Positions 22,193 through 62,554 of a stretch of 64,000 nucleotides of DNA are shown here, in pieces. The position numbers were made by a program, and so were the translations under genes. Positions within the stretch are counted from its first letter, which is position 1, and every line of letters begins with the position of its first letter. The stretch is from Pseudanabaena sp. UWO311 (lineage in GTDB: Bacteria; Cyanobacteriota; Cyanobacteriia; Pseudanabaenales; Pseudanabaenaceae), in the NCBI RefSeq assembly GCF_006937785.1, contig NZ_SJEE01000002.1, positions 186,001-250,000 of the forward strand. Direction: 5' to 3'. The notes below the pieces were generated by a model that was given only the letters and a program-made list of their open reading frames with translations, was not told the DNA's origin and made no database searches.

Positions 22193-22284
22193 TTCATAAA
22201 AGTGTGACAACACTTTTATGAATTAAAAACAAACTCTGTAAGGGTTTTAAAAACACAAAATGGCGTAGCCATTTTGTGTTTTTG
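22193..22284. mobile_element. Family-2 element, degenerate ends
   Basis: aattcataaaagtgtgacaacacttttatgaattaaaaacaaactctgtaagggttttaaaaacacaaaatggcgtagccattttgtgttttt. Confidence 0.6.
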
Positions 22285-23730: not shown

Positions 23731-23967
23731 TTAGAACTTGCGAAGATCAAGCCCTGCTTCTTTAGCAAATGCAGATAGTCCTTTCTTTTGCAGAGTCTTA
23801 ATAGCTTTAGTAGAAATTTGTAATTTTACAAAACGCTTTCCTTCTTCCCACCAAATTCTTTTGTCTTGTAAGTTTACGTGTTGTAAGTGCTTATGACGCT
23901 TGTGTGAGAAAGAGATCGATACAGAATTATTGGCTTTTTTGCCTGTTAGTTGGCATACGCGACTCAT
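23731..23967 (-). CDS. rpmB: 50S ribosomal protein L28
   Basis: [63 protein letters not shown]. Confidence 0.95.
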
Positions 23968-24118
23968 AGTACTAGTCTCCTATTTTTTCAGTCCAGCTAC
24001 CCATAGTACAGCCTCAAAGCATACTTAGGCAATCAAGAAAAATATTTTAGCGCTCAAAGCCCAAAAGAGAGACAACGCTCCACTTCGTCTCTCTTTTGGG
24101 CTTTGAGTCACTCTGTAA

Positions 24119-24318
24119 TACCAATTCACGAAAGTGTTCACACTTTTGTGAATTAAAAAACAAACCCAGTAAGGGTTTTAAGGAATAAAGATTAAATAAC
24201 ATGTGCAAATAAAACCCAAAATTGGTTCGGCGGGCGTAGCCCGCCGAACCAATTTTGGGTTTTATTAAATTTTCATTCCTAAAAACACAAAATGGTGTAG
24301 CCATTTTGTGTTTTGGTA
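24119..24318. mobile_element. Family-2 element flanked by TAA/TAA, interrupted by a family-3 element
   Basis: TACCAATTCACG...GTGTTTTGGTA; direct repeats 24116-24118 and 24319-24321. Confidence 0.75.
24182..24279. mobile_element. Family-3 palindromic element (GGAAT...ATTCC) nested in family 2, flanked by TAA/TAA
   Basis: TIR ggaataaagattaaataa / ttattaaattttcattcc; direct repeats 24179-24181 and 24280-24282; removal restores gggttttaaaaacacaaaatgg as in the copy at 22193-22284. Confidence 0.75.
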
Positions 24319-24376
24319 TAAGACAATCAAAGCGATGAGGTCTGTAAATTACAAGCTGGGCTAGGATATTGCAAAA

Positions 24377-24748
24377 ATGAGTAATAGCAGAATTTTTAAA
24401 AGCGCAGAATTTTTTCAATCAACAGAAGATGAGCCTATTCGCTCTGTCGTTACTGAGTCCTCAGACACCATCGTGGTGGCTTGGTATATTAAGCCAAATC
24501 AAGAAATTGCCCCACATCTTCATCCTCACGGGCAAGACACTTGGACTATTTTGCAAGGTAAAGGCAAATATTATTTAGATCAACAAGGTTCAACTACAGC
24601 GATCGCCGCAGGAGATATTGTTATTGCGCCTACTGGTTGTGTCCATGGAGTATTCAACGATGGCGATGAGCCACTAGTTTTTATTTCAACCGTTTCACCA
24701 GCTACCGCAGGATATCAACCTGTATTGATCGAGGCTTCGATTTCCTAA
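24377..24748 (+). CDS. Cupin-domain protein
   Basis: AWYIKPNQEIAPHLHPHGQDTWTILQGKGKYYLD...AGDIVIAPTGCVHGVFNDGDEPLVFI. Confidence 0.88.
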   Translation: MSNSRIFKSAEFFQSTEDEPIRSVVTESSDTIVVAWYIKPNQEIAPHLHPHGQDTWTILQGKGKYYLDQQGSTTAIAAGDIVIAPTGCVHGVFNDGDEPLVFISTVSPATAGYQPVLIEASIS

Positions 24749-58022: not shown

Positions 58023-58550
58023 ATGCTTAAACGCTTCGCTGGTAGTTTGTTATTGCCTGTATCCATTGCATTGGCATTAGCTTCATGTCAGCAGCCTAGT
58101 GCTACACCAACAGCTCCTTCGCCGTCAGTGGCTGCTTCATCTTCTCCTAAAGCAGATGCTTCTCCTAAAGCAGATGCTTCTCCTAAAGCAGATGCTTCTC
58201 CTAAAGCAGATGCTTCTCCTAAAGCAGATGCTTCTCCTAAAGCAGATGCTCCTTCTGAAGGTAAGACTAAAGATATTGATGCCCTTATCAAAGATCAAGC
58301 TGAATACAAGGAAATGTATGAAGCAACTGGTGGTATCAAGTACATTGGTTTAGTCGAGGCGGAAACATGTAAAGCACTTGACTCAGGTGTTCCCATGAAA
58401 ACCCTAACCGATGCACTCGAGAAAGAATTTGACAAGCAAGGTAGTTCTATCCCTGCGGACAAACTCACGAAATTGAAAGAGTATACAGGTTTTGTACTTG
58501 GTGCTAGCGTGGCGATCTCTTGCCCTCAACACAAAGACAAGATTAAATAA
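58023..58550 (+). CDS. Lipoprotein with SPKADA hexapeptide tandem repeats
   Basis: Lipobox ALALASC; (SPKADA)x6; conserved-looking C-terminal domain. Confidence 0.7.
   Translation: MLKRFAGSLLLPVSIALALASCQQPSATPTAPSPSVAASSSPKADASPKADASPKADASPKADASPKADASPKADAPSEGKTKDIDALIKDQAEYKEMYEATGGIKYIGLVEAETCKALDSGVPMKTLTDALEKEFDKQGSSIPADKLTKLKEYTGFVLGASVAISCPQHKDKIK
58143..58250 (+). repeat. 18-bp in-frame tandem repeat (tctcctaaagcagatgct), six copies
   Basis: Six identical 18-bp units read directly. Confidence 0.95.
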
Positions 58551-62110: not shown

Positions 62111-62410
62111 GCTTTGCTAACTCCCTAAATATTAAAAACTTTTATTTTCAAAAATTGCGTGTAGGTAGTATAACAGCTAGCATTGCACATTTGCTAAAAA
62201 CCAGAATTGTTAAGCAACGCACTCAACCATTGAGTTAACTCTTCGCAACGATTGCAAATTTTTGAGTACGCGCAATAACTTTGTAATATCACAAAGCTGT
62301 TATGACACTAATTTGGGTTTTTATCGACTACGGTGGGGAAACCCAAATAGTTATATAGTCAAAAAACAAAACATCCTCTGTCTTATGCTGATGCTCTTAA
62401 GCTAGCTCTG

Positions 62411-62554
62411 GCGACACCAAAATTTGCCTTTTATAGGCAAAAAATAAGAAACCACCCTTGCTGCTGATGCGTATAAGCTCAGGCGACACCAAAATTTGCC
62501 TTTTATAGGCAAAAAATAAGAAACCGCCTTTGCTGCTCATAAGCTCAGGCGGAA
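62411..62554. repeat. Tandem direct repeat, 72-bp period, two copies plus degenerate flanks
   Basis: gcgacaccaaaatttgccttttataggcaaaaaataagaaacc(a/g)cc...gctgct...ataagctcag occurs at 62411 and 62483. Confidence 0.9.

Follow-up and report, generated by a model that had tools for sequence, protein, structure and literature searches.

A miniature element with ISAzo13-type ends nested within an older miniature element of Pseudanabaena

How did one short repeat come to lie within another between two genes of Pseudanabaena sp. UWO311, and which transposase placed it there? The composite is located in the divergent intergenic region between rpmB, for ribosomal protein L28 (23731–23967, minus strand; PF00830, 1.6e-18), and the gene for a cupin-domain protein (24377–24748, plus strand; PF07883, 3.4e-15). 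Positions refer to the window, the whole stretch of 64,000 nucleotides that was analysed, which belongs to a genome of 5.2 Mb in a 61-contig assembly. With high confidence, the inner element is a 98-bp MITE with ISAzo13 ends, probably put into an older element of another family (family 2) by an ISAzo13 transposase acting in trans.

The nested structure, with both elements flanked by TAA as the first-pass annotation had described, is confirmed base by base. The outer, family-2 miniature element (TACCAATTC...TTTTGGTA, 24119–24318, plus strand) has TAA target duplications at 24116–24118 and 24319–24321, and is split by the inner, non-autonomous element (GGAATAAAGATTAAATAACATGTGCA...AATTTTCATTCC, 24182–24279, plus strand). 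The inner element starts with GGAAT and ends with ATTCC, and is flanked by TAA duplications at 24179–24181 (within family 2) and 24280–24282. Its center is a palindrome with perfect arms of 28 nt and a 3-nt loop, GTA (24208–24266, plus strand). Without the inner element and one TAA, the outer element is 99 bp long and contains three hairpins, closed by TACC/GGTA. This excision restores GGGTTTTAAAAACACAAAATGG, an exact match to the family-2 copy at 22193–22284, as had been claimed. The family-2 element with its insert folds at −100 kcal/mol (z −14). The only open reading frame across the inner element (24047–24418, minus strand) is a mechanical frame covering both elements. An Rfam search of 23900–24500 gave no match, and the plasmid collection a single one, in Pseudanabaena galeata CCNP1313. 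The nesting is a well-documented but ordinary landing of one non-autonomous element in another.

The order of the two insertions is documented by orthologous loci. Neither element is present in the orthologous region of one genome (G011), where the site reads GAGTAGGACAATC, compared to CTGTAA + GACAATC here with the insert and one TAA left out. In another Pseudanabaena genome (G016), the same intergenic region holds an uninterrupted family-2 element flanked by TAA, which is probably the very same insertion event, its flanks having diverged. The outer element was therefore inserted first at this locus and the inner element second, and the two successive insertions proposed earlier stand. In the proposed mechanism, the family-2 element would have entered a TAA between rpmB and the cupin gene, duplicating it. 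A candidate ISAzo13 transposase, supplied in trans, would then have inserted the inner element at a TAA inside family 2, and this 3-bp target would have been copied in turn. A long hairpin (approximately 24052–24106) adjoins the composite, and its arms are different yet still complementary in the G011 ortholog.

The order at this locus does not extend to whole families. The first-pass annotation had proposed a relative chronology of family 1, then 2, then 3. At positions 452–667 of the window a family-2 element interrupts a family-1 element, and the reverse is observed elsewhere in the same genome, with a family-2 element split by one of family 1 (G000:C55:81700-82300). A strict chronology is thus ruled out as a genome-wide rule, and families 1 and 2 overlapped in activity. 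As the direction of nesting varies within the genus, nested pairs are no simple clock for whole families.

The nested unit could also be a single composite that moves as a whole. Using the composite itself as the query, related composites were found in other genomes (L246 and L247), as this reading would expect. However, the inner element of L246 (genome G019, outer flanks TTA) occupies another TAA within family 2 and comes from a different inner subfamily, making it an independent nesting. Most family-2 copies have no insert, and most inner-family copies are located outside family 2. No second copy was seen with the same internal junctions but different outer duplications. Movement as one unit is accordingly very improbable, and two separate insertions are preferred.

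Relatives of the inner element are numerous in this genome (best BLAST matches 1e-42 to 1e-15) and in the genus, and the nested insertion is therefore not a chance arrangement. Several two-ended copies are among the loci fetched from this genome, and many are present in sister species. Identical 3-bp flanks, all TAA or TTA, are found for 26 of the 30 two-ended copies fetched from the genus; six further matches are truncated or spurious and lie outside these 30. The four exceptions have TGA/TTA, TTC/TTA, TTA/TTC and TTA/TAA. The 3-bp TNA pattern claimed for the GGAAT...ATTCC copies is upheld, in the form TWA.

The 26-bp end of the inner element (GGAATRAARATTWAWTAACWTGTGCA) is also the end of ISAzo13-family insertion sequences. 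The end pattern has 26 matches in this genome and 0 for the reversed control. A search of 38 genomes finds the inner end in 28, with almost no matches for the reversed control, and two Pseudanabaena genomes (G014 and G016) have many GGAATGAAAAATAAATAAC ends. In a sister Pseudanabaena genome, a deletion derivative of 442 bp (L039) has a GGAAT-type end on both sides and TAA/TAA flanks. It retains N- and C-terminal pieces of an ISAzo13 transposase reading frame (Pfam DDE_Tnp_ISAZ013; NCBIfam ISAzo13 family transposase). The inner element and the right end of L039 are equal at 24 of 26 positions, for which the chance is about 3e-4 over 40 genomes in a uniform-base model. A second deletion derivative (L074) is 402 bp long and flanked by TTA/TTA, and at six other loci an inner-type end is found within about 50 bp of the stop codon of an ISAzo13 transposase (PF07592).

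Complete ISAzo13 elements with GGAATGAAAA..TAATAA ends are present in other cyanobacteria. The copy in Microcoleus (L122) is 1368 bp long, with a GGAATGAAAAATAAATAA end and TAA/TAA flanks, and encodes a 407-aa ISAzo13 transposase (NF033519, E 3.4e-149; PF07592, E 2e-109). A complete element in Oscillatoria (L176) is flanked by TTA/TTA, and two in Oscillatoriales (L123 and L131) have unequal TNA flanks. Perfect TWA duplications are found for 10 of 12 ISAzo13 copies in Calothrix NIES-4101 and 21 of 25 in a Methanosarcina. The 3-bp duplications of the ISAzo13 family are known from the literature (PMC10045372). Five ISAzo13-type elements (L060, L131, L193, L194 and L259) are flanked by TAA at one end and by TTA at the other, which could be explained by recombination between copies or by an unusual repair of the target.

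The inner element is short, has no transposase gene, occurs in multiple dispersed copies, and shares terminal inverted repeats and the TWA duplication with the ISAzo13 family. Because its ends match those of ISAzo13 elements and TWA duplications are common to both, it is best filed, from its sequence, as a MITE with ISAzo13 ends. Like the ISAzo13 insertion sequences (PF07592, NF033519) it has ends of the form GGAATRAA..TWAATAAC and a 3-bp TWA duplication, and its 26-bp end is common to the Pseudanabaena deletion derivatives. Unlike these insertion sequences, it is only 98 bp long and carries a palindrome with 28-nt arms instead of a transposase gene.

An ISAzo13 transposase would be the agent of the inner insertion in this lineage. 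The genome itself has one near-complete ISAzo13 copy (L060), with other ends (GGGAAAGC...), plus a fragment (L088). Its 61 contigs yielded no transposase gene of the GGAAT type, so that the partner is absent, has been lost, or was missed in this assembly. None of the Pseudanabaena loci taken, at most 30 per search, held a complete ISAzo13 element of the GGAAT type; the copies are deleted or stop at contig edges, and most ISAzo13 copies of the genus sit at contig ends.

A different mobiliser, a transposase of the IS1031 group of the IS5 family, had been proposed for the inner element in the first-pass annotation, with the TNA duplications as the argument. IS1031-group elements make 3-bp TNA duplications, and two IS5-type elements of the genus (L337 and L339) appear, from a reading of their ends, to be flanked by TTA. 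The inner element does have such a duplication, but this is unspecific, as ISAzo13 also makes TWA. The IS5-type loci were surveyed with PF13340, PF13359 and PF01609 across 26 genomes of the genus, with up to 30 loci for each family. Their ends start with TATAGAACCC, GAGCGTGTTTGAG, GA(G/A)AGCATTTAAG, TAGACCT and others, none with GGAAT or TACCAA, and PF13340 has no match in this genome. The 26-bp inner end is found on ISAzo13 elements and not on the sampled IS5 types, which leaves mobilisation by an IS1031-group transposase with very little probability. A mobiliser named from the ends of the element, ISAzo13, replaces the guess from the length of the duplication.

The palindrome in the center of the inner element raises the question of whether this sequence transposed at all. 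Recombination or replication template switching could have produced or spread the palindrome, with the TAA flanks being coincidental. Consistent with such an origin, the palindromic core is also found in this genome with other ends or no recognisable ones. On the other hand, the identical TWA flanks of the two-ended copies, the ends shared with a transposase-bearing element, and the orthologous region that holds family 2 without the inner element all argue against it, and an origin without transposition is hardly credible. Transposition of the inner element with ISAzo13-type ends is the reading retained here.

In 14 distinct copies of the inner palindrome, 98.2% of the stem cells pair. Changes on both sides are found in 12 of the 28 pairs, which no shuffle or slide matches; as the copies are related, the shuffles overstate the case, but the slid controls drop to 0–5 pairs. 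Selection, hairpin-templated correction or exchange may maintain the palindrome. A similar palindrome is found in family 1 and in other places. Very similar long palindromes (AAAACCCAA...GGCGGGC..GCCCGCC...TTGGGTTTT) are located at 584–638 and 24211–24263 of the window. Such palindromes are seen at six further loci, both in MITEs with unrelated ends and alone; at two of them (L013 and L028) a further type of element, ATGATCCATATAAAACCCC...GGGTTTTATATGGATCAT, surrounds this kind of palindrome. One speculative reading, to which we give a rather low probability, is that the core AAAACCCAA...GGCGGGC-loop-GCCCGCC...TTGGGTTTT is an independent module. Several unrelated MITE families of the genus would carry it: the inner element with its ISAzo13-type ends, family 1 with those of the IS630 type, a third type that has GATCCATATAAAACCCC arms, and copies in which no ends are recognisable. 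The compensating arms, and a loop found in both orientations, would fit a core that passes from element to element and is copied or corrected in the form of a DNA hairpin.

The other two families differ from the inner element in their ends. Family 1 has IS630-type ends (PF13358), which it shares with elements in which TATAGCTGTCGCCAAGTGTATTAGGAC is located just downstream of the DDE_3 domain (L355; L374 is similar), compared to TATAGCTGTCGCCAAATGTACTAGGAC in family 1. For family 2, about 120 places are counted in this genome and as many as about 350 in congeneric species; a search of 15 genomes from other genera found none. Perfect duplications flank 13 of 18 distinct copies (7 TTA, 5 TAA and 1 TGA). 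Inspection of IS4/IS5, IS630 and ISAzo13 loci turned up no mobiliser of family 2. None of the IS630 elements inspected has TACCAA ends, and the sampled ends of the ISAzo13 subgroups are GGAAT, GGGAAAGC, GGGAGTAG and others, none of them TACCAA. A search for a parent with the right end of family 2, in four nearly complete genomes, gave a few matches. At two places (G013:C67:119132-119179 and G014:C51:104-151), TWATACCAATTCACR ends face each other about 48 bp apart, which suggests a shortened form of family 2 with hairpin A alone.

With the inner element, a MITE family can be assigned to ISAzo13; the literature that could be searched contains no other. Nostoc and its relatives reportedly contain very small mobile repeats (those of Elhai et al. 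2008) that are palindromic and sometimes nested; by this description, they resemble the inner element in being very small, mobile and cyanobacterial. Cyanobacterial MITEs such as Nezha (Zhou et al. 2008, cited in PMC10969869) are also short, AT-rich and intergenic, with terminal inverted repeats, a target duplication and many copies. The Zator transposons, which also make 3-bp duplications, have a transposase related to ISAzo13 (PMC10045372, PMC5718144); they are eukaryotic, and their link to ISAzo13 goes no further than the transposase family.

Two other repeats are present in the window. An 18-bp repeat (CTTCTCCTAAAGCAGATG), with seven registers reported, forms a tandem array at 58123–58284. 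Two direct repeats of 65 bp, with 94% identity and starts 72 bp apart, are located at 62404–62540.
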